Source of the DNA: Scleroderma bovista | Taxonomy: Eukaryota; Basidiomycota; Agaricomycetes; Boletales; Sclerodermataceae | Direction: 5' to 3' | Assembly (NCBI GenBank): GCA_037178675.1 | Contig: JAYMGJ010000238.1 | Coordinates: 1-64,000 of the forward strand | Length of the DNA: 64,000 nucleotides | In this document: positions 1 to 20,120 of the stretch, piece after piece | Position numbering within the stretch: position 1 is the stretch's first letter | Layout: each line of letters starts with the position of its first letter | Made by a program: the position numbers and the translations under genes | The notes under the pieces: model-generated | The model's database searches: none | What the model was told of the DNA's origin: nothing | The model's input: only the letters and a program-made list of their open reading frames with translations

Positions 1-2149
1 CGATTGGTTTAAGTGTTTTAGAGACGAATTTGGCTAATGGATTCTGCAGAGCAGAATGGCATGGTGCAATCGGCCGCATACGTATGGGTTTCTTATGTAC
101 CTTAGGAATCCCATAGAACGATGGAAGTTTGATCTGCCCCGTGATGTTCGTTTGTGACAAACGAATCCCTTCAGGGGTGACCTCCATCGGAAAATGCTGG
201 CGGAGATACTGGCAGAGTTGCTTAGTATCTTCGTCGTGGAGTGCATCTTTGATGTAATCCACTGATTGCTTTAATTCGCCTAGTTTGACGTTTAGGAAAT
301 CAGAGACTTCCTCTGCGCCAAGAGCACGGTAACCCGTATTTGGTCCGAAGATTAATTTACGGGTTTCCCTGTCGAGCCAGTCACCAGTTACTACGCAGGC
401 TCCCAGGTTTTTGTCAGTCGGCGTGACGACATAACCCTTGGATTTAATCCAATTTTGAATGGCTGTAACGGTGGGAGATCGGATGGTACCGACCTTCCTC
501 TCCGCTTGGCATGCCGTAGAGACAGAGTCTACATAACGGTCTCCTTCGCGGAGTGCCCATTCAAGGAGATAGTTTGGTTCCTGATTGAACGGCTTACGTG
601 TTCGAGGAACGTCGTAGTCTGGTTCGAAGGGAGTAGGCATTTGGTCATTAAATAGAGAAGTTTCTATAAAATGCATACGCCATCTCAAGCGATCTTTTAG
701 ATCTTCCCAGGCCGCCGGGATGAGAGAGTGGTTGGCGTATTGTGGAAGCATAAACTTCCATCCTATGCTTAGCTCACGCAGGTACTTAATGTCTTCCCAT
801 TCGAAGATGACATCGGGTCCATAGTGCACAGTATGTAGAAACAAAGAGTGTTGTAAGTACTGTACAGGACAAAGCGTTCGTATGATAACCGCGGCCCCCC
901 ATTCCAATGGCAACTCTGTGACAAAGTTTGGGTAAGTGGACGGCGAATCGTAGAGAGCGCTACCATTGCGTACCTGTTGAAGAAAGGAAATCACTTCTTC
1001 CCAGACCTCTTCTTCTGAGACTTGCTCCCAGAAGGTCGAGTGGGCGACGTCTTTGATTTCGTCTTCTTCGAGGTCGACGGCGGCGAGGATTTCTTCCCTT
1101 GTCGGGATTTGTTCTTCGCGGCGGCACCGCTTTGGGGCTGTTTCTTCCCCTTCTTGCCTTTGCCGTGACCTACCATGAAATACACGTTCAAGAGGAGAGA
1201 GGGTTAGCTCGGGATCTCTGGAACGAGTATTCATGGTACCTTTTTGAACCTTGACGGTTCGCAACGCTTGCTTGACCCTCTTGTCAACCATTTTGAAGAT
1301 GGTGTCCTTTGACGAAAGGTCACTCATCATAACGTCGGCAGCGTTTTTCACCTCCTTCTTCTTGTTCTGTCGCATGACGAGGGCGGTAACCTTGGCACGA
1401 GACAGAAGGACGATCTTCACGGCAAGAGTTGGAAGCTCCTGACGGAAGGATTCGTATGTGCCGCGAATGTGGGCAGGGATACCGTCCTGGTGTGCTAAGA
1501 CGTCCAGATCGGAACCGATCCGGCGCGTGGGCACGAGTTGGTCTGCTAGGAGGTGCTGATATGTCATGGTCAGGATCTCGTAGAGAGCGGGTAGGTAGGT
1601 GGAGGCCGTAGAGGCCTGTTTGTAGTGCTCCTTCTCGGCCGTCTTGGCCTTGATCAACGCCGACGTCTGCTGCGAGACGTACGCTTGGTAGTTGGTTTGC
1701 ATGGCGTCGCAAACCGTGGCGTGAGTGGCGAGAAAACCGGCAGGGAACTGCACCACAGGAGGCTTGGAGGACCGAAGAGGGGCGGGGCATCGTTCGTTCG
1801 CGAGATCCGCTTCCAGGCGACCTAGTTGGTCGCAGGTTTCCTGGAAGCGGCGAGCCGCATCAGCGATCTGGAAAAGCGCGGGACGAAGAGCCTCTCGGTA
1901 CTCCTTAGGAACTAGATCCACGACATCCGAGACGGTGTCGCAGGTCATCGCCGCACCGGCACGCGGCTGGGCCGTGTAGTCGGTGTAAGACTCGAACTGA
2001 CACAGTGGCTCTCGGTCCAACTGCATCGCGTTCCTGTTCGAGCCTTCTGGAATCGGGGGCAACGCCCACGTCGCTTCCATACTGGCGAGGTCGTTAGCCA
2101 CCGCAAAAGCGGCGGGCGACATAGAACGAGCGCGACGGATAGGTGCCAT
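1..2149 (-). mobile_element. PLE copy A, reverse-transcriptase ORF, cut by window start
   Basis: The ORF starts with ATG at 2149 and stays open to base 1, covering about residues 1-716 of the 1,233-residue protein. It lines up with the full copies without insertions or deletions. It includes the N-terminal extension and the first RT motifs (the DKNLGA region and the IPKVHK motif) but the window ends before the catalytic YIDD. The 5' leader carries a hammerhead-ribozyme fold at 2221-2300. Nothing in the visible part suggests decay. Confidence 0.9.
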
Positions 2150-2220: not shown

Positions 2221-2300
2221 GTAGAGTGGCCAAAGACACCTCAAGTGGTAGACACTGGGGTGGGCTTTCGTCGGTGGTTGACTCTTCAGTGGCTCTCTAC
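2221..2300 (-). ncRNA. Type I hammerhead ribozyme, A/B spacer
   Basis: Read on the minus strand from 2300 to 2221. Stem I pairs GUAGAG with CUCUAC and GCCA with UGGC, with a small internal loop. The core CUGAAGA follows, then stem II GUC/GAC with loop AACCACC, then GAAA. Stem III follows (AG/CU, CACC/GGUG, AGUG/CACU), then the UH site. The expected cut is after base 2233 (CUU, then U), leaving an 83-nt leader before the ORF ATG at 2149. All invariant hammerhead positions are present. The open end is at stem I, so it is type I, the form known from Penelope-like elements. Activity is not tested. Confidence 0.85.
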
Positions 2301-2307
2301 ATCACCC

Positions 2308-2316
2308 TTATATAAT
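2308..2316 (-). promoter_or_regulatory. Possible TATA box of the PLE (repeated at 6473 and 10638)
   Basis: The minus strand reads ATTATATAA just upstream of the hammerhead 5' strand, about 160 nt before the ORF, in all three spacers. It is the only clear TATA-like motif in the spacer. If it were used, transcripts would start inside or close to the hammerhead, so its role is uncertain. Confidence 0.3.
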
Positions 2317-2612: not shown

Positions 2613-5600
2613 TCAGTCTCGGGCTGTGCGACGGCGTTGCCTAATCGGTTCTGGATCCTCCCAGGTGGCATTAAATCGTTTAAGCCAGTCCTGTACTAAC
2701 GGAGGGGGCGGTTGCTCAAGTATTCCGACAGACCAAGGTGGTCCGCAGATACAGTCGGCTACCGTGAATCCAGCGCGGGACATTAGTAATTCCGCTTCAT
2801 CCATGGCTAAGCGATCCATATCACGTTCGTGCCGATATGCGGCGTCGATTCCCCTTACGATATCGTACGTAGAGGGGCCGGGTTCCACTTCCCGATACGT
2901 GTCTAGGACGGACTTCTTCCAAAGAAGAGCAAGGTCGCCGAGGCGCTTAGTGCGCTTACGGGATACGACCCATTTCGAATTGTCCACAAGTAGTGTATGG
3001 AGGTCAAGGTAAGTGACCGGTCCATAGACGACGTCTCCCTCGTACTCGTGCCACAGGTCCTTCTGGACGGTCGCCCTGTCAAGGAGCGGAAAAGCATCCT
3101 TCGGGAACTGTGAACTTTCGGGGAAGAACGGCAGCCGAAACTGCCATCGTCGTAAGGGGTGCTCTTCATCATTATTAATGACGAAATCTCCCTTCTCCCA
3201 GCTGTCGCTTACAGCTTTGAGAGGCTTACTAATGTGGCGAAGAAGTTCCGATATGGAAAAATCGCTCCAAGCGTCGTTAAAGTGGGTCTTAAGGACAATA
3301 ATGTCCTTCTCGTCGTTGTCGGCTTTAATGGCAAACCGGTTTTCCCAACGAGTGTGAATGTGGTCGGACAACCACTTTCGGACGACGCGATCGGGGTATC
3401 CTCTACTAAGGTAGAGGGCAGCGAGATTCTTAGCTGCAGTCATGTAAGTGTTCCGCTTACTAGACAACACCGCCAATCGGGATAACTCTCCGATGAACGT
3501 TCCTCGTTTAACGTCATACGGGTGTGAGGAATCCCATGGAACTCTCTCAAGGTGGTTACCGGGCTTACGGTAAGGTCTCCATTGAACCTTATTGTGCTCA
3601 TCGAGATAAATGAACATGTCCAGGAAGACTAAGGATCTTCCCGGCGTGGCCCAGTCAACGGAACATCCTTCCAAGTGCCAGTTTTGCTTGGCAATGTCCA
3701 GGGCCTCGGCGGCCGTGGGCGCTTGGATGACGGCAAATATGTCATCGATGTAACGTCGGTAAAATAATACAGCGGGGTGGGATGTTATTTCCTGATCCGC
3801 TTCGATTGCGTAAATGTTCGCGATGTCCGGAGAACATGCAACGCCCATTGCAATACCTTTTGTTTGGAGATAAGGGAGACCGTTGTGTTCAACGACGAGG
3901 TTAGACACAGCGGCGGTAAGGATATGTGACCAATGGTCCCTGGGCAAGCGTCGAATGACGTGATTTGCCGGTAGGAACCGGTCGCATAATGCGATGTTGG
4001 TTAAGCGGGTAACCGTTTGAACTGCCCGCTTTACGTCGATATTAGGGTAATATGCGACGATATCTCCACCAACTAACCATAAGGGGACAAATTGTGGGAG
4101 AGTTAATCCAGTTAACTCAAGCGCAATTTCTTTTGTCCCGTTGCATATGGACGGTTCAGATGCAACGATTGGTTTAAGTGTTTTAGAGACGAATTTGGCT
4201 AATGGATTCTGCAGAGCAGAATGGCATGGTGCAATCGGCCGCATACGTATGGGTTTCTTATGTACCTTAGGAATCCCATAGAACGATGGAAGTTTGATCT
4301 GCCCCGTGATGTTCGTTTGTGACAAACGAATCCCTTCAGGGGTGACCTCCATCGGAAAATGCTGGCGGAGATACTGGCAGAGTTGCTTAGTATCTTCGTC
4401 GTGGAGTGCATCTTTGATGTAATCCACTGATTGCTTTAATTCGCCTAGTTTGACGTTTAGGAAATCAGAGACTTCCTCTGCGCCAAGAGCACGGTAACCC
4501 GTATTTGGTCCGAAGATTAATTTACGGGTTTCCCTGTCGAGCCAGTCACCAGTTACTACGCAGGCTCCCAGGTTTTTGTCAGTCGGCGTGACGACATAAC
4601 CCTTGGATTTAATCCAATTTTGAATGGCTGTAACGGTGGGAGATCGGATGGTGCCGACCTTCCTCTCCGCTTGGCATGCCGTAGAGACAGAGTCTACATA
4701 ACGGTCTCCTTCGCGGAGTGCCCATTCAAGGAGATAGTTTGGTTCCTGATTGAACGGCTTACGTGTTCGAGGAACGTCGTAGTCTGGTTCGAAGGGAGTA
4801 GGCATTTGGTCATTAAATAGAGAGGTTTCTACAAAATGCATACGCCATCTCAAGCGATCCTTTAGATCTTCCCAAGCCGCCGGGATGAGAGAGTGGTTGG
4901 CGTATTGTGGAAGCATAAACTTCCATCCTATGCTTAGCTCACGCAGGTACTTAATGTCTTCCCATTCGAAGATGACATCGGGTCCATAGTGCACAGTATG
5001 TAGAAACAAAGAGTGTTGTAAGTACTGTACAGGACAAAGCGTTCGTATGATAACCGCGGCCCCCCATTCCAATGGCAACTCTGTGACAAAGTTTGGGTAA
5101 GTGGACGGCGAATCGTAGAGAGCGCTACCATTGCGTACCTGTTGAAGAAAAGAAATCACTTCTTCCCAGACTTCTTCTTCTGAGACTTGCTCCCAGAAGG
5201 TCGAGTGGGCGACGTCTTTGATTTCGTCTTCTTCGAGGTCGACGGCGGCGAGGATTTCTTCCCTTGTCGGGATTTGTTCTTCGCGGCGGCACCGCTTTGG
5301 GGCTGTTTCTTCCCCTTCTTGCCTTTGCCGTGACCTACCATGAAATACACGTTCAAGAGGAGAGAGGGTTAGCTCGGGATCTCTGGAACGAGTATTCATG
5401 GTACCTTTTTGAACCTTGACGGTTCGCAACGCTTGCTTGACCCTCTTGTCAACCATTTTGAAGATGGTGTCCTTTGACGAAAGGTCACTCATCATAACGT
5501 CGGCAGCATTTTTCACCTCCTTCTTCTTGTTCTGTCGCATTACAAGGGCGGTAACCTTGGCACGAGATAGAAGGACGATCTTCACGGCAAGAGTTGGGAG

Positions 5601-6314
5601 CTCCTGACGGAAGGATTCGTATGTGCCGCGAATATGGGCAGGGATACCGTCCTGGTGTGCAAGGACGTCCAGATCGGAGCCGATCCGGCGCGTAGGCACG
5701 AGTTGGTCTGCTAGGAGGTGCTGATATGTCATGGTCAGGATCTCGTAGAGAGCGGGTAGGTAGGTGGAGGCCGTAGAGGCCTGTTTATAGTGCTCCTTCT
5801 CGGCCGTCTTGGCCTTGATCAACGCCGACGTCTGCTGCGAGACGTACGCTTGGTAGTTGGTTTGCATGGCGTCGCAAACCGTGGCGTGAGTGGCGAGAAA
5901 ACCGGCAGGGAACTGCACCACAGGAGGCTTGGAGGACCGAAGAGGGGCGGGGCATCGTTCGTTCGCGAGATCCGCCTCCAGGCGACCTAGTTGGTCGCAG
6001 GTTTCCTGGAAGCGGCGAGCCGCATCAGCGATCTGGAAGAGCGCGGGACGAAGAGCCTCTCGGTACTCCTTAGGAACTAGATCTACGACATCCGAGACGG
6101 TGTCGCAGGTCATCGCCGCACCGGCACGCGGCTGGGCCGTGTAGTCGGTGTAAGACTCGAACTGACACAGTGGCTCTCGGTCCAGCTGCATCGCGTTCCT
6201 GTTCGAGCCTTCTGGAATCGGGGGCAGCGCCCACGTCGCTTCCATACTGGCGAGGTCGTTTGCCACCGCAAAAGCGGCGGGCGACATAGAACGAGCACGA
6301 CGGATAGGTGCCAT
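2613..6314 (-). mobile_element. PLE copy B, full-length RT protein (1,233 aa)
   Basis: This is an intact single ORF encoding a reverse transcriptase of the Penelope-like class. Seen in the protein: an N-terminal region of about 575 residues with a basic NLS-like stretch (PKRCRREE near 339) and acidic helical segments; then RT blocks with DKNLGACV (about 580), FYGIPKVHKKP (about 680), the first catalytic Asp in GGDIVAYYPNI (about 750), KGIAMGVACSPDIAN (about 820), catalytic YIDDIF (about 855) and the PLE-typical block near 930. IPKVHK and YIDDIF are family signatures. No GIY-YIG endonuclease is visible in the roughly 290 residues after the RT, as in the endonuclease-deficient Coprina/Athena branch. 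The start at 6314 is the first ATG and is shared by all copies. Expected role: copying its own RNA onto DNA ends. Confidence 0.9.
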
Positions 6315-6385: not shown

Positions 6386-6465
6386 GTAGAGTGGCCAAAG
6401 ACACCTCAAGTGGTAAACACTGGGGTGGGCTTTCGTCGGTGGTTGACTCTTCAGTGGCTCTCTAC
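6386..6465 (-). ncRNA. Type I hammerhead ribozyme, B/C spacer
   Basis: This is the same 80-nt fold as in the A/B spacer, with the core CUGAAGA, stem II GUC/GAC, GAAA and the stem I pairing fully kept. It differs from the A/B copy by one base in the apical loop of stem III, where no pairing is disturbed. Predicted cleavage follows the base at 6398, again 83 nt upstream of the copy B start codon at 6314. Confidence 0.85.
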
Positions 6466-6777: not shown

Positions 6778-9700
6778 TCAATCTCGGGCTGTGCGACGGC
6801 GTTGCCTAATCGGTTCTGGATCCTCCCAGGTGGCGTTAAATCGTTTAAGCCAGTCCTGTACTAACGGAGGGGGCGGTTGCTGAAGTATTCCGACAGACCA
6901 GGGTGGTCCACAGATACAATCAGCCACCGTAAATCCAGCGCGGGACATTAGTAATTCCGCTTCATCCATGGCTAAGCGATCCATATCACGTTCGTGCCGA
7001 TATGCGGCATCGATTCCCCTTACGATATCGTACGTAGAGGGGCCGGGTTCCACTTCCCGGTACGTGTCTAAGACGGACTTCTTCCAAAGAAGAGCAAGGT
7101 CGCCGAGGCGCTTAGTGCGCTTACGGGATACGACCCATTTCGAATTGTCCACAAGTAGTGTATGGAGGTCAAGGTAAGTGACCGGTCCATAGACGACGTC
7201 TCCCTCATACTCGTGCCACAGGTCCTTCTGGACGGTCGCCCTATCAAGGAGCGGAAAAGCATCCTTCGGGAACTGTGAACTTTCGGGGAAGAACGGCAGC
7301 CGAAACTGCCATCGTCGTAAGGGGTGCTCTTCATCATTATTAATGACGAAATCCCCCTTCTCCCAGCTGTCGCTTACAGCTTTGAGAGGTTTACTAATGT
7401 GGCGAAGAAGTTCCGATATGGAAAAATCGCTCCATGCGTCGTTAAAGTGGGTCTTAAGGACAATAATGTCCTTCTCGTCGTTGTCGGCTTTAATGGCAAA
7501 CCGGTTTTCCCAACGAGTGTGAATGTGGTCAGACAACCACTTTCGAACGACGCGATCGGGGTATCCTCTACTGAGGTAGAGGGCAGCGAGATTCTTAGCT
7601 GCAGTCATGTAAGTGTTCCGCTTACTAGACAACACCGCCAATCGGGATAACTCTCCGATGAACGTTCCTCGTTTAACGTCATACGGGTGTGAGGAATCCC
7701 ATGGAACTCTCTCAAGGTGGTTACCGGGCTTACGGTAAGGTCTCCATTGAACCTTATTGTGTTCATCGAGATAAATGAACATATCCAGGAAGACTAAGGA
7801 TCTTCCCGGTGTAGCCCAGTCAACGGAACATCCTTCCAAGTGCCAGTTTTGCTTGGCAATGTCCAGGGCCTCGGCGGCCGTGGGTGCTTGGATGACGGCA
7901 AATATGTCATCGATGTAACGTCGGTAAAATAATACAGCGGGGTGGGATGTTATTTCCTGATCCGCTTCGATTGCATAAATGTTCGCGATGTCCGGAGAAC
8001 ATGCAACGCCCATTGCAATACCTTTTGTTTGGAGATAAGGGAGACCGTTGTGTTCAACGACGAGGTTAGACACAGCGGCGGTAAGAATATGTGACCAATG
8101 GTCCCTAGGCAGGCGTCGAATGACGTGATTTGCCGGTAGGAACCGGTCGCATAATGCGATGTTGGTTAAGCGGGTAACCGTTTGAACTGCCCGCTTTACG
8201 TCGATATTAGGGTAATATGCGACGATATCTCCACCAACTAACCATAAAGGGACAAATTGTGGGAGAGTTAATCCAGTTAACTCAAGCGCAATTTCTTTTG
8301 TCCCGTTGCATATGGACGGTTCAGACGCAACGATCGGTTTAAGTGTTTTAGAGACGAATTTGGCTAATGGATTCTGCAGAGCAGAATGGCATGGTGCAAT
8401 CGGTCGCATACGTATGGGTTTCTTATGTACCTTAGGAATCCCATAGAACGACGGAAGTTTGATCTGCCCCGTGATGTTCGTTTGTGACAAACGAATCCCT
8501 TCAGGGGTGACCTCCATCGGAAAATGCTGGCGGAGATACTGGCAAAGTTGCTTAGTATCTTCGTCGTGGAGTGCATCTTTGATGTAATCCACTGATTGCT
8601 TTAATTCGCCTAGTTTGACGTTTAGGAAATCAGAGACTTCCTCTGCGCCAAGAGCACGGTAGCCCGTGTTTGGTCCGAAGATTAATTTACGGGTTTCCCT
8701 GTCGAGCCAGTCACCAGTTACTACGCAGGCTCCCAGGTTTTTGTCAGTCGGCGTGACGACATAACCCTTGGATTTAATCCAATTTTGAATGGCTGTAACG
8801 GTGGGAGATCGGATGGTGCCGACCTTCCTCTCCGCTTGGCATGCCGTAGAGACAGAGTCTACATAACGGTCTCCTTCGCGGAGTGCCCATTCAAGGAGAT
8901 AGTTTGGTTCCTGATTGAACGGCTTACGTGTTCGAGGAACGTCGTAGTCTGGTTCGAAGGGAGTAGGCATTTGGTCATTAAATAGAGAAGTTTCTATAAA
9001 ATGCATACGCCATCTCAAACGATCCTTTAGATCTTCCCAGGCCGCCGGGATGAGAGAGTGGTTGGCGTATTGTGGAAGCATAAACTTCCATCCTATGCTT
9101 AGCTCACGCAGGTACTTAATGTCTTCCCATTCGAAGATGACATCGGGTCCATAGTGCACAGTATGTAGAAACAAAGAGTGTTGTAAGTACTGTACAGGAC
9201 AAAGCGTTCGTATGATAACCGCGGCCCCCCATTCCAATGGCAACTCTGTGACAAAGTTTGGGTAAGTGGACGGCGAATCGTAGAGAGCGCTACCATTGCG
9301 TACCTGTTGAAGAAAAGAAATCACTTCTTCCCAGACTTCTTCTTCTGAGACTTGCTCCCAGAAGGTCGAGTGGGCGACGTCTTTGATTTCGTCTTCTTCG
9401 AGGTCGACGGCGGCGAGGATTTCTTCCCTTGTCGGGATTTGTTCTTCGCGGCGGCACCGCTTTGGGGCTGTTTCTTCCCCTTCTTGCCTTTGCCGTGACC
9501 TACCATGAAATACACGTTCAAGAGGAGAGAGGGTTAGCTCGGGATCTCTGGAACGAGTATTCATGGTACCTTTTTGAACCTTGACGGTTCGCAACGCTTG
9601 CTTGACCCTCTTGTCAACCATTTTGAAGATGGTGTCCTTTGACGAAAGGTCACTCATCATAACGTCGGCAGCGTTTTTCACCTCCTTCTTCTTGTTCTGT

Positions 9701-10479
9701 CGCATGACGAGGGCGGTAACCTTGGCACGAGACAGAAGGACGATCTTCACGGCAAGAGTTGGAAGCTCCTGACGGAAGGATTCGTATGTGCCGCGAATAT
9801 GGGCAGGGATACCGTCCTGGTGTGCTAAAACGTCCAGATCGGAACCGATCCGGCGCGTGGGCACGAGTTGGTCTGCTAGGAGGTGCTGATACGTCATGGT
9901 CAGGATCTCGTAGAGAGCGGGTAGGTAGGTGGAGGCCGTAGAGGCCTGCTTGTAATGCTCCTTCTCGGCCGTCTTGGCCTTGATCAGCGCCGACGTCTGC
10001 TGCGAGACGTACGCTTGGTAGTTGGTTTGCATGGCGTCGCAAACCGTGGCGTGAGTGGCGAGAAAACCGGCAGGGAACTGCACCACAGGAGGCTTGGAGG
10101 ACCGAAGAGGGGCGGGGCATCGTTCGTTCGCGAGATCCGCCTCCAGGCGACCTAGTTGGTCGCAGGTTTCCTGGAAGCGGCGAGCCGCATCAGCGATCTG
10201 GAAGAGCGCGGGACGAAGAGCCTCTCGGTACTCCTTAGGAACTAGATCCACGACATCCGAGACGGTGTCGCAGGTCATTGCCGCACCGGCACGCGGCTGA
10301 GCCGTGTAGTCGGTGTAAGACTCGAACTGACACAGTGGCTCTCGGTCCAACTGCATCGCGTTCCTGTTCGAGCCTTCTGGAATCGGGGGCAGCGCCCACG
10401 TCGCTTCCATACTGGCGAGGTCGTTGGCCACCGCAAAAGCGGCGGGCGACATAGAACGAGCACGACGGATAGGTGCCAT
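6778..10479 (-). mobile_element. PLE copy C, full-length RT protein (1,233 aa)
   Basis: This is a second intact copy with the same length, start context and RT motifs as copy B. I see only two residue differences from copy B (Val/Ile near 494; Glu/Gln close to the C-terminus), although the DNA differs at many more sites, mostly silent ones. Within the last 170 bases of the ORF there are about eight differences, of which one changes the protein. The 5' leader holds its own hammerhead fold (10551-10630). The copy looks recently active or still under selection for protein function. No GIY-YIG domain is present. Confidence 0.9.
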
Positions 10480-10942: not shown

Positions 10943-13155
10943 TCAATCTCGGGCTGTGCGGCGGCGTTGCCTAATCGGTTCTGGATCCTCCCAGGTGGCG
11001 TTAAATCGTTTAAGCCAGTCCTGTACTAACGGAGGGGGCGGTTGCTGAAGTTTTCCGACAGACCAAGGTGGTCCACAGATACAATCAGCCACCGTAAACC
11101 CAGCGCGGGACATTAGTAATTCCGCTTCATCCATGGCTAAGCGATCCATATCACGTTCGTGCCGGTATGCGGCGTCGATTCCCATTACGATATCGTACGT
11201 AGAGGGGCCGGGTTCCACTTCCCGATACGTGTCTAAGACGGACTTCTTCCAAAGAAGAGCAAGGTCGCCGAGGCGCTTAGTGCGCTTACGGGATACGACC
11301 CATTTCGAATTGTCCACAAGTAGTGTATGGAGGTCAAGGTAAGTGACCGGTCCATAGACGACGTCTCCCTCGTACTCGTGCCACAGGTCCTTCTGGACGG
11401 TCGCCCTGTCAAGGAGCGGAAAAGCATCCTTCGGGAACTGTGAACTTTCGGGGAAGAACGGCAGCCGAAACTGCCATCGTCGTAAGGGGTGCTCTTCATC
11501 ATTATTAATGACGAAATCCCCCTTCTCCCAGCTGTCGCTTACAGCTTTGAGAGGTTTACTAATGTGGCGAAGAAGTTCCGATATGGAAAAATCGCTCCAT
11601 GCGTCGTTAAAGTGGGTCTTAAGGACAATAATGTCCTTCTCGTCGTTGTCGGCTTTAATGGCAAACCGGTTTTCCCAACGAGTGTGAATGTGGTCGGACA
11701 ACCACTTTCGGACGACGCGATCGGGGTATCCTCTACTGAGGTAGAGGGCAGCGAGATTCTTAGCTGCAGTCATGTAAGTGTTCCGCTTACTAGACAACAC
11801 CGCCAATCGGGATAACTCTCCGATGAACGTTCCTCGTTTAACGTCATACGGGTGTGAGGAATCCCATGGAACTCTCTCAAGGTGGTTACCGGGCTTACGG
11901 TAAGGTCTCCATTGAACCTTATTGTGTTCATCGAGATAAATGAACATATCCAGGAAGACTAAGGATCTTCCCGGTGTAGCCCAGTCAACGGAACATCCTT
12001 CCAAGTGCCAGTTTTGCTTGGCAATGTCCAGGGCCTCGGCGGCCGTGGGTGCTTGGATGACGGCAAAAATGTCATCGATGTAACGTCGGTAGAATAATAC
12101 AGCGGGGTGGGATGTTATTTCCTGATCCGCTTCGATTGCGTAAATGTTCGCGATGTCCGGAGAACATGCAACGCCCATTGCAATACCTTTTGTTTGGAGA
12201 TAGGGGAGACCGTTGTGTTCAACGACGAGGTTAGACACAGCGGCGGTAAGGATATGTGACCAATGGTCCCTGGGCAGGCGTCGGATGACGTGATTTGCCG
12301 GTAGGAACCGGTCGCATAATGCGATGTTGGTTAAGCGGGTAACCGTTTGAACTGCCCGCTTTACGTCGATATTAGGGTAATATGCGACGATATCTCCACC
12401 AACTAACCATAAAGGGACAAATTGTGGGAGAGTTAATCCAGTTAACTCAAGCGCAATTTCTTTTGTCCCGTTGCATATGGACGGTTCAGACGCAACGATC
12501 GGTTTAAGTGTTTTAGAGACGAATTTGGCTAATGGATTCTGCAGAGCAGAATGGCATGGTGCAATCGGTCGCATACGTATGGGTTTCTTATGTACCTTAG
12601 GAATCCCATAGAACGACGGAAGTTTGATCTGCCCCGTGATGTTCGTTTGTGACAAACGAATCCCTTCAGGGGTGACCTCCATCGGAAAATGCTGGCGGAG
12701 ATACTGGCAGAGTTGCTTAGTATCTTCGTCGTGGAGTGCATCTTTGATGTAATCCACTGATTGCTTTAATTCGCCTAGTTTGACGTTTAGGAAATCAGAG
12801 ACTTCCTCTGCGCCAAGAGCACGGTAGCCCGTATTTGGTCCGAAGATTAATTTACGGGTTTCCCTATCGAGCCAGTCACCAGTTACTACGCAGGCTCCCA
12901 GGTTTTTGTCAGTCGGCGTGACGACATAACCCTTGGATTTAATCCAATTTTGAATGGCTGTAACGGTGGGAGATCGGATGGTACCGACCTTCCTCTCCGC
13001 TTGGCATGCCGTAGAGACAGAGTCTACATAACGGTCTCCTTCGCGGAGTGCCCATTCAAGGAGATAGTTTGGTTCCTGATTGAACGGCTTACGTGTTCGA
13101 GGAACGTCGTAGTCTGGTTCGAAGGGAGTAGGCATTTGGTCATTAAATAGAGAAG
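10943..13155 (-). mobile_element. PLE copy D, 5'-truncated, RT domain retained
   Basis: This copy matches the others from its stop at 10943 up to base 13155, then breaks off abruptly (residue about 497 of the full protein). All RT motifs remain, including YIDDIF; the N-terminal 496 residues and the 5' leader are missing. The reading frame stays open past the break and picks up an ATG at 13186 in the flanking sequence, giving a chimeric 747-codon ORF whose first 11 residues come from the neighbour. It also carries private amino-acid changes (such as Met in place of Arg in DIVRGID). 5' truncation fits incomplete reverse transcription. Whether the chimeric ORF is expressed is unknown. Confidence 0.9.
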
Positions 13156-15587
13156 CGTTTCTTGCGTGACCGTTATCTGGAACCATGTGCTAAAATGACA
13201 GCAGCCTCTTGTTATTGCTTCTGGTTTGTCTGTTGGAAAAGAAGGACCGTCTGTGCACGTGGCCTGTTGCGTTGGGGCTGTGGTTGCTAATTGGTTCCAG
13301 AGGTTCTCCCGAAGTCAAGGTACTTAGTTCCTTTTTCTCTTGTCTTCTCTTCGTTATATCATACGGAATTAGGTAAGATGAGGGAGGTCATCACAGCCGC
13401 CAGTGCAGCAGGTGTTGCCGTTGCTTTCGGTTCGCCTATTGGTGGGGTCTTGTTTTCGATTGAGGTAAGGGTTAAACTGGCCACGTTTATCATCTTTCTA
13501 AAAATCCATCCGTTCAGGAGATGAGCCACATATTCCGGATCAAGACTATGTGGCGCAGCTTTGTTTGTGCGTTGGTTGCTACCTTTACACTTTCTGTCCG
13601 TACGATTTCTCACATCTCGCAACGTATCCTTATATGTTACTTGCAGGTCATGAACCCATTTCGGACCGGGAAACTTGTTCTTTTCCAAGTGACCTATAGT
13701 CGTAGTTGGCACTTCTTTGAAATCATATTCTGGGTCATCATCGGCATATTTGGGGTAAGGGTTACTCTCTGGGATCGTGCTTCATTAATATGATTACCAG
13801 GGCCTTTACGGTGCCTTTGTAGTGAAACTTAATATACAGGTGGCAGCTTTCCGCAGGAAGCATCTGGCAAAGCATGGGGTAGCGGAGGCCGTTGTCCTTG
13901 CCGTTCTGACGGCAATGGTTGGATATTTCAACCGATTCCTTCGCATAGACATGACCGAGATGATGTCAATATTATTCAGGGAATGCGAAGGGGGCGGTGA
14001 TTACGACAATCTATGCCAGTATGTGTGTTGCGTTTTCTATTCTGTGTTTGTGATATGACGGATTTCCACAGGCAATGGGCACAGTGGCCTATGGTTAACT
14101 CCCTTCTCCTCGCAACAATCATAAGAACGGGATTTGTGATTATATCTTATGGCGCGAAAGTTCCAGCGGGGATCTTCGTACCATCGATGGCTATCGGTGC
14201 AACTTTTGGCCGAATGGTAGGCATCATCGTGAAGGCGGTATACAGGTTCGATGTTTGCCACTACTGGAACATATTTCTTACATTGTTTCTCTAGAGCTTA
14301 CCCACAATCTGGAATATTCACTTCTTGCGACCCTGACTTGCCTTGTATCACTCCTGGAACGTACGCTTTTCTTGGTGCTGCTGCGGCATTAAGTGGCGTC
14401 ATGCGAATCACGGTCACTGTTGTTGTCATCATGTTTGAGCTGACTGGTGCATTGACATACATCCTACCCACCATGGTGAGCTCTCGCATATCAGTAGCAT
14501 GTAATTATGGACGCCCACCTGCCTTCTGATAGATTGTAATTCTGGTCGCCAAAGCTGTTGGCGACTTCATCGGAATGCGCGGCATGGCTGATGAAACTAT
14601 TCGGTTCAATGGATACCCTATTTTAGATCAAGAAGGCCATTCACCAGATGTTCCAGGTGCGCCAATGCCCCGATGACATTCAGCTCTAGTGGATTTATTG
14701 TGCCGAAGTTCTGGAAGTTATGAAGAAAGACCTGACCACCCTGTATACATTAGGGATGCGTGTCTGCGACGTTGGTATGAGCCCATTCCCCTAGATCCTT
14801 CAGGATGACCTGATTTTTCATTTGGAGAGGATGTACTTTCCTCCACCGATGTCAAAGGCTTTCCGATTATCGCTTCGAAATCATCATATATTCTCTCCGG
14901 GTACATTGGTCGGACAGAATTGCGTTATGTGCTAGGTAAAATTTACAAGTGGTGGGCGAGGGTAGGGTATCTCATTACCATTTCAGATAAGGCGCAACAT
15001 ATGGGCGATATCACACCAGAGACCCAATGTTCATTTAACCGACAAGCCTCCGACCAGGAACATGACATCCTCTCTGGTGTAGGGTCCGGTTCTGCGCTTG
15101 GAGCCGAAGAAGAAGTTGCGGCAGAACTGTTGGAGACGACTGCGTCGAATGATGTTCTCAAACTATGGCCATGGGTGAATCAGGTGACCCTTACTTATCT
15201 CCCTTCCATCATCGATGTACTGAGCAGAAACACATTGAAGACCCCTCTTACTGTACCTCCAAGATTGCCCCTTGAAATTCTTATGCAGTTGTTCAAACGC
15301 ATGGGGTATATTAACCTCCCTTTCCCCTTTATACAACTGACGTGGCTTCGCACAGGCCCCGTGTCATCCTGGTGGAAGAGCAGGGTATGCTCAAAGGCTT
15401 GGTAACTGTAAAGGATGTACTACGTTTCAACGCGACGACTGAGGCGACTGAGAGTGATGAACGGTGGGGTAGCGGAGATTTTGAAGCGGCTCTGGAGGTG
15501 ATGTGGAATTGGGGGGCAGGTGTCACGGAAAGTGTTGTTGATCGATGGAGAAGCATATTGCGATCACAGCGGGGAAATGGATCTTAA
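13156..15587 (+). pseudogene. CLC-type chloride channel, N-terminal part missing
   Basis: Exons (approximate): 13206-13319, 13373-13464, 13518-13595, 13647-13754, 13801-14018, 14072-14245, 14295-14475, from 14533, then several to the stop at 15585-15587. They encode GKEGPSVHVA (the conserved ion-path motif), [42 protein letters not shown] and [14 protein letters not shown], followed by a cytosolic region with two CBS domains and a typical C-terminus ending after VTVKDVLRF. About 595 residues remain, against roughly 750-850 in fungal GEF1-like channels. The first transmembrane helices are gone at the junction with PLE copy D. The rest reads open, so the break is recent or a new promoter or start is used. 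Intact family members are intracellular chloride/proton transporters affecting vesicle acidification and copper/iron homeostasis. Confidence 0.85.
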
Positions 15588-20046: not shown

Positions 20047-20120
20047 GGCCCGTTGGCGTAGTTGGTTATCGCATCTGTCTAACACACAGAAGGTCCCCTG
20101 TTCGAGCCAGGGTCGGGTCA
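20047..20120 (+). tRNA. tRNA-Val (anticodon AAC)
   Basis: A 74-nt cloverleaf without an intron. Acceptor strands GGCCCGT and TCGGGTC pair, D arm GCG...CGC, anticodon stem TCTGT/ACAGA with loop CTAACAC (anticodon AAC), T arm CCCTG/CAGGG with loop TTCGAGC, discriminator A. A short T-rich stretch follows from 20122, as expected of a Pol III terminator. Confidence 0.9.

Follow-up and report, generated by a model that had tools for sequence, protein, structure and literature searches.

All three spacers of a tandem retroelement array in the fungus Scleroderma bovista carry, on the minus strand, an 80-nt type I hammerhead ribozyme (HHR) motif. The array lies in the window, which is the whole stretch of 64,000 nucleotides analysed (positions 1 to 64,000 of contig JAYMGJ010000238.1). 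That the spacers hold genuine type I HHRs is confirmed, and their catalytic activity is likely. They are probably part of the pLTR-like end region of a telomerase-like, probably endonuclease (EN)-deficient Penelope-like element (PLE). The probability of a genuine type I HHR in such a setting, taken together with the whole mechanism proposed below, is put at about 0.78. Observed directly are the anatomy of the motif, the maintenance of its pairing across five families, its place between a TATA-like box and the 3′ end of the element, and the retention of the motif plus ~50 nt in inserted copies. The features concerned are as follows (R1 is a covariance model described below).

2..2149, minus strand: retroelement ORF, first 716 amino acids, its 3′ part lying off the contig end
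2176..2186, minus strand: zone matching the 3′ ends of non-tandem copies (unit 4129-4139), by local alignment
2221..2300, minus strand: HHR of spacer 1, with C3 at 2289 and predicted cleavage between 2233 and 2232; R1 25.1 bits, filters off
2308..2314, minus strand: TATATAA, starting 25 nt before the HHR core
2613..6314, minus strand: retroelement ORF, 1233 amino acids, reverse transcriptase
6386..6465, minus strand: HHR of spacer 2; R1 26.2 bits, E 1.4e-5
6778..10479, minus strand: retroelement ORF, 1233 amino acids
10551..10630, minus strand: HHR of spacer 3; R1 26.2 bits, E 1.4e-5
10943..13153, minus strand: ORF of a copy 5′-truncated at about unit position 1492

Stem I of the window copies is in two parts (GCCA/UGGC and GUAGAG/CUCUAC), stem II is a 3-bp helix (GUC/GAC) with a 7-nt loop, and stem III, of ~30 nt, is in three parts. 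The core is intact, with CUGAAGA, GAAA and, before the returning strand of stem I, the UU of the cleavage site. Three helices with helix I open-ended, and a core of CUGANGA and GAAA with UH at the site, define type I. The internal loop of stem I (A/CA) and the loop AACCACC are candidates for a loop I–loop II tertiary contact. The sole difference among the three copies is at window position 2251, in the hairpin loop of stem III, where the first has C and the other two have U. The original prediction had placed a type I hammerhead of just this construction in each spacer of a PLE-like retroelement, with the one difference between copies in an unpaired loop, and in all these respects it is upheld. 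Predicted cleavage leaves 83 nt up to the ATG at 2149, a spacing identical in each spacer.

The host is most likely an EN-deficient PLE. Its reverse transcriptase is telomerase-like, and its copies, which have pLTRs, follow one another head to tail as partial tandems with a period of 4165 and a 5′-truncated copy at one end; both are marks of PLEs. One further protein, P0002, is 81% identical. For a GIY-YIG domain, the ORF gave no Pfam match at E≤1, as is characteristic of the EN-deficient class; PF01541 had 0 matches at E≤0.001 in the host genome, whereas 12 of the 14 genomes used as controls (prokaryotes where named) do have it. A PDB sequence search with the ORF found no match, nor did plasmid records, a collection not of fungal DNA that carries little weight here. 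Fungi are said, in the relevant passages of one account (PMC3846280), to hold only EN-deficient PLEs. Between window copies 1 and 2 there are 70 differences, of which 61 are in the ORF (2613-6314 versus 6778-10479; 58 synonymous and 2 non-synonymous codons), and on this ground recent tandem duplication of one copy was rejected. Each array copy may instead be a source element in its own right, evolving separately under selection. [The 5′-truncated end of the array adjoins a CLC chloride-channel gene (window 13153-14500; PF00654 pieces from 13202), seemingly without its N-terminal part as the first PF00654 piece is at profile position 47; the flank beside this gene matches nowhere else in the genome. 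A third reverse transcriptase family, on contig C263, is 25% identical and has three copies 7973 bases apart; neither regular expression nor R1 at E≤1 found an HHR in its 30 kb.]

The 80-mer is matched 12 times in the host genome (51.8 Mb in 850 contigs), one match being partial. Also present are related ORFs of ~32-45% identity, whose spacers carry other HHRs. The window HHRs are of family A, and the other four families have these cores and second stems:

Family B1: CUGACGA or CUGAUGA; stem II GGC/GCC
Families B2 and B3: CUGAUGA; stem II GAC/GUC
Family B4: CUGAAGA; stem II GUGGAU/AUCCAC

Over the five families the pairs of inner stem I and stem II are kept in 35 cases out of 35. When the 3′ arms were re-dealt, 12 of 14,400 re-dealings equalled this, ties included; ties occur because some families have an arm in common (inner stem I in B1, B3 and B4; stem II in B2 and B3). 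(Cross-family MAFFT alignments were left out of the pair counts, as differing loop II lengths put GAAA out of register in them.) CUGANGA and GAAA are in 22/22 distinct HHR rows, both having been required by the row search. Of these rows, 21 have CUU as cleavage triplet and one, of B2, has CUC. CUU is a slow cleavage triplet, a point against catalysis that would fit retention of uncut HHR.

In family A the HHR has changed more slowly than the sequence around it. Relative to window copy 1, the copy on contig C711 has changes at 3/80 HHR positions, 35/312 positions of upstream spacer and 75/506 fourfold sites; for the copy on C151 the values are 8/80, 59/312 and 31/120. None of the 11 HHR changes is in the core; five are at unpaired positions and six at paired ones. 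Five of these six keep the pair, all as G-U, and one (in C711, at the end of the apical helix of stem III) breaks it. The G-U outcomes have to be read with caution, since 6 of the 8 changes in C151 are C-to-T and such a change in a G-C pair yields G-U by itself. [A diverged B1/B3 HHR at C433:22228-22308 (genome G000) has GAAA and stem III and is without CUGANGA in the matched stretch.]

Where inserted copies end is informative about their template RNAs. Nine non-tandem family A copies represent eight distinct 3′ junctions (those on C193 and C12 have common flanks), at unit positions 4129, 4129, 4133, 4133, 4134, 4134, 4136 and 4139, as placed by local alignment good to a few bases. The cleavage site is between unit positions 4082 and 4083, and none of the eight is there: all are 47-57 nt beyond it. 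Thus the template RNAs had either escaped cleavage at the 3′ HHR or been religated after it. (The copy on C560 is in two pieces, with an interruption inside the HHR.) There are no telomeric repeats in the 100 bases past the eight family A junctions; in family B, telomeric repeats follow the tail behind the HHR. Family B looks like a telomere-attached element. [Its HHR-bearing pieces are chained by (CCCTAA)n at loci L002, L008, L012, L017, L021, L039, L042 and others.]

On the other side of the ribozyme, each of the five families has a TATA-like hexamer (the pattern taken being TATAWA or ATAAAA) whose first base is 18-25 nt ahead of the core; it is there in 14 of 17 distinct contexts among the fetched loci, against a background of 0.45% of window positions, a count for which the families may not be fully independent as they are perhaps of common ancestry. 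The other three contexts are two core-pattern matches outside the HHR rows and one copy fused to telomeric repeats; a truncated copy on C81 was missed by the context pattern. The pLTR of a rotifer Penelope is described as having a TATA box followed after 20 bp by an initiator-like site (PMC3846280, in part). A transcript starting ~25-35 nt after the box of the window element, itself 25 nt before the core, would be without the 5′ strand of stem I, and so would have no complete HHR before its ATG.

Some 5′ ends fused to telomeric repeats bear on the same point. Among the fetched loci are 26 distinct sequences behind telomeric repeats, 18 of which map to the A or B units used and 8 of which do not. 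Three of the 18 mapped junctions start at −3 to +8 of core C3, where a uniform spread over ~4700 positions would give 0.05; the junctions are few and their clustering was noticed first and counted afterwards. An exact-pattern search of the genome, with 35 B2-type and 33 B1/B3-type exact matches as its base, found telomere joins inside the HHR at C8:748, C81:179, C247:10782 and C838:9083, the last three being those near core C3. The join at C8:748 begins after GAAA, outside the core, and that on C81, which adjoins a long tract of telomeric repeats close to where the contig starts, may be plain truncation. Together, the TATA-like box and these few 5′ ends hint that the RNA may start inside the HHR. 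[Fourteen of the 26 sequences behind telomeric repeats, in family B, begin with G (CCCTAA/G), as if the repeats are often added to ends finishing in C.]

The mechanism proposed is that RNAs would start in or near the HHR core, leaving the upstream copy of the ribozyme incomplete and the downstream copy complete. In read-through transcripts of the array, internal HHRs could cut the RNA to unit lengths with an 83-nt leader, while RNAs that act as insertion templates would keep the 3′ HHR uncut, and its fold may help to bring the 3′ tail to the reverse transcriptase. The transcription start, the cutting and the role of the HHR are here inferred. In its strict form, with the promoter set so that RNA begins inside the HHR and each RNA has a single, directional, 3′-terminal ribozyme that stays uncut on insertion and cuts only array read-through, the proposal is tentative, with the odds somewhat against it. 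If it is true, the HHR would be a selector of 3′ ends, distinguishing full-length from read-through RNA, and not a 5′ processor. Self-cleavage 83 nt upstream of the start codon, as the original prediction had it, is not upheld in that form: the geometry fits a read-through transcript of the array, but the 3′ junctions, all beyond the site, and the closeness of the TATA-like box to the core do not favour it.

The 3′ junctions also accord with a different role, in which the HHR fold is now mainly a structural 3′-end signal for the reverse transcriptase and cleavage is weak or vestigial. PAc of the lizard Anolis carolinensis, a tandem PLE with its HHR at the pLTR-ORF junction as here (PMC11167929), lends this some weight: according to the passages on it, insertion was unaffected by HHR mutations, and RNA-seq showed no ends at the cleavage site. 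In the same account unprocessed RNA is the main substrate for PAc insertion in vitro, and the uncut 3′ ends of family A agree with this preference and with the behaviour of the mutants. PAc differs in having a GIY-YIG endonuclease and an HHR described with stems I and II only, overlapping the start codon (PMC11167929, in part). Its ribozyme does cut with protein present (PMC11167929, same passages), which speaks against a mainly structural role, as do the retention of CUGANGA and GAAA in every distinct HHR row (with the reservation that the search required them) and the absence of core changes from the two diverged family A copies. A vestigial ribozyme is accordingly possible but doubtful.

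Alternatively, transcription would start upstream and the HHR would trim the RNA at its 5′ end, leaving a leader of 83 nt. In R2, an HDV-like ribozyme trims a 5′ end in this way. The constancy of the spacing to the ATG is in favour, and so is the plant retrozyme NbRZ1, whose LTR-directed transcript is described as cut by its own HHR with loss of the 5′-proximal part (PMC12029980, in part), a layout opposite to that proposed here. Such trimming is unlikely, however, with the TATA-like box just 25 nt before the core. Among the non-tandem family A copies found, none reaches the 5′ end, so that no 5′ end at the cleavage site is observable from them; in family B, four telomere-joined 5′ ends within HHRs precede the site and none is at it, with the proviso that the exact join patterns exclude joins at that site while the junction mapping of fetched loci includes them.

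The window HHR is a further example of already known PLE HHRs and not a new kind, because the abstract of a 2014 study by Cervera and De la Pena reportedly includes fungal ones. Fungal and protist PLEs reportedly encode HHR variants with stable conformation as monomers in that study, and PLE hammerhead ribozymes are also said to be the subject of Lunse et al. in 2017. The ~30-nt stem III of the window HHR agrees with the fungal and protist variants so described. Coprina PLEs of basidiomycetes, reportedly described by Gladyshev and Arkhipova in 2007, are by description like the window element in being fungal and EN-deficient. No paper with a title or abstract opening on HHRs of fungal PLEs was among the matches listed. 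That PLEs carry HHRs is already established (PMC6155905, PMC7761336, PMC6431247, PMC7229834); as in the window element, the ribozyme is of type I and is placed in the terminal repeats of copies arranged in tandem. Most are described in two of these, so far as the passages concerned go, as minimal and without helix III (PMC6155905, PMC7761336), in contrast to the long stem III here. The telomere-associated, EN-deficient Terminons/Athena of rotifers have, in the relevant extract, an HHR near the 3′ end and then reverse-complement telomeric repeats (PMC6431247). Family B is alike, whereas family A, with no such repeats after its 3′ junctions and an array beside a CLC gene, is not. In another basidiomycete, Pleurotus ostreatus, HHR-like sequences are likewise present as Hammerhead_3, but as five 55-bp type 3 calls (Rfam 11) with no element named in the portion concerned (PMC5040776). 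The in vivo activity and role of PLE HHRs are 'still a mystery' according to part of a review (PMC7761336). One fungus with five HHR families, in which stem III is long, the element ends are mapped and the TATA-like box keeps a nearly fixed distance, makes 5′ trimming, separation of array transcripts and marking of 3′ ends distinguishable by mapping RNA ends.

A core-plus-stems descriptor matched 3 sites in the window, the three HHRs, and 0 on the plus strand. On 150 Markov sequences of window length it gave 3 matches in total, or 1 if outer stem I was also required, and an earlier version gave 0.05 per sequence on 60. The unconstrained minimum-energy fold of the 80-mer contains stems I and II and upper stem III. 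In an 85-nt version the full HHR fold has −23.3 kcal/mol against −24.8 unconstrained, i.e. it is 1.5 kcal/mol costlier. The covariance search of the minus-strand region with Rfam hammerhead models, which had been suggested as a check, gave zero matches: none at gathering thresholds in the whole window, and none at E≤10 in 2150-2400 or the 80-mer alone, the only rows at E≤10 being snoRNAs at 12.5 and 11.6 bits, far under their cut-offs. The HHRs of the B families similarly gave no Rfam hammerhead match, whether in seven loci searched with gathering thresholds or, at E≤10, in 1051 bases that contain two HHRs. A match to a curated covariance model is a recogniser and not part of the definition of an HHR motif.

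Model R1, built from a MAFFT alignment of families B2 and B3 only, from this genome, scores the family A HHRs at 24-26 bits, and B1 and B4, also absent from it, at 51-59 and 32.6-33.6 bits. With default filters, spacers 2 and 3 were found at 26.2 bits and spacer 1 only on the reverse strand, at 17.8 bits; with filters off, the HHR of spacer 1 appeared on the correct strand. The next-best match elsewhere in the window has 11.8 bits (E 0.35). The absence of a significant covariance-model hit, which was to have counted against a ribozyme, thus holds for Rfam and does not for R1. Palindromic pairing contributes to the R1 scores, since the reverse strands of the HHRs also reach 12.4-17.8 bits. A plus-strand ribozyme (14.9-17.8 bits in the window) was rejected, as the aligned strand has neither CUGANGA nor GAAA where they should be and is taken for a palindrome.

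Chance, or a palindrome artefact without function, has in its favour the silence of the Rfam hammerhead models, the modest folding z-score of the 80-mer (−1.64) and the reverse-strand R1 matches, but is made very improbable by the recurrence in five families of the same core at the same place with partly different stems, by the re-dealing of stem arms, by the rarity of descriptor matches (0.02-0.05 per window-sized random sequence) and by the slower change of the HHR than of fourfold sites. The window's only Rfam match at gathering thresholds is a tRNA gene at 20047-20120 on the plus strand.
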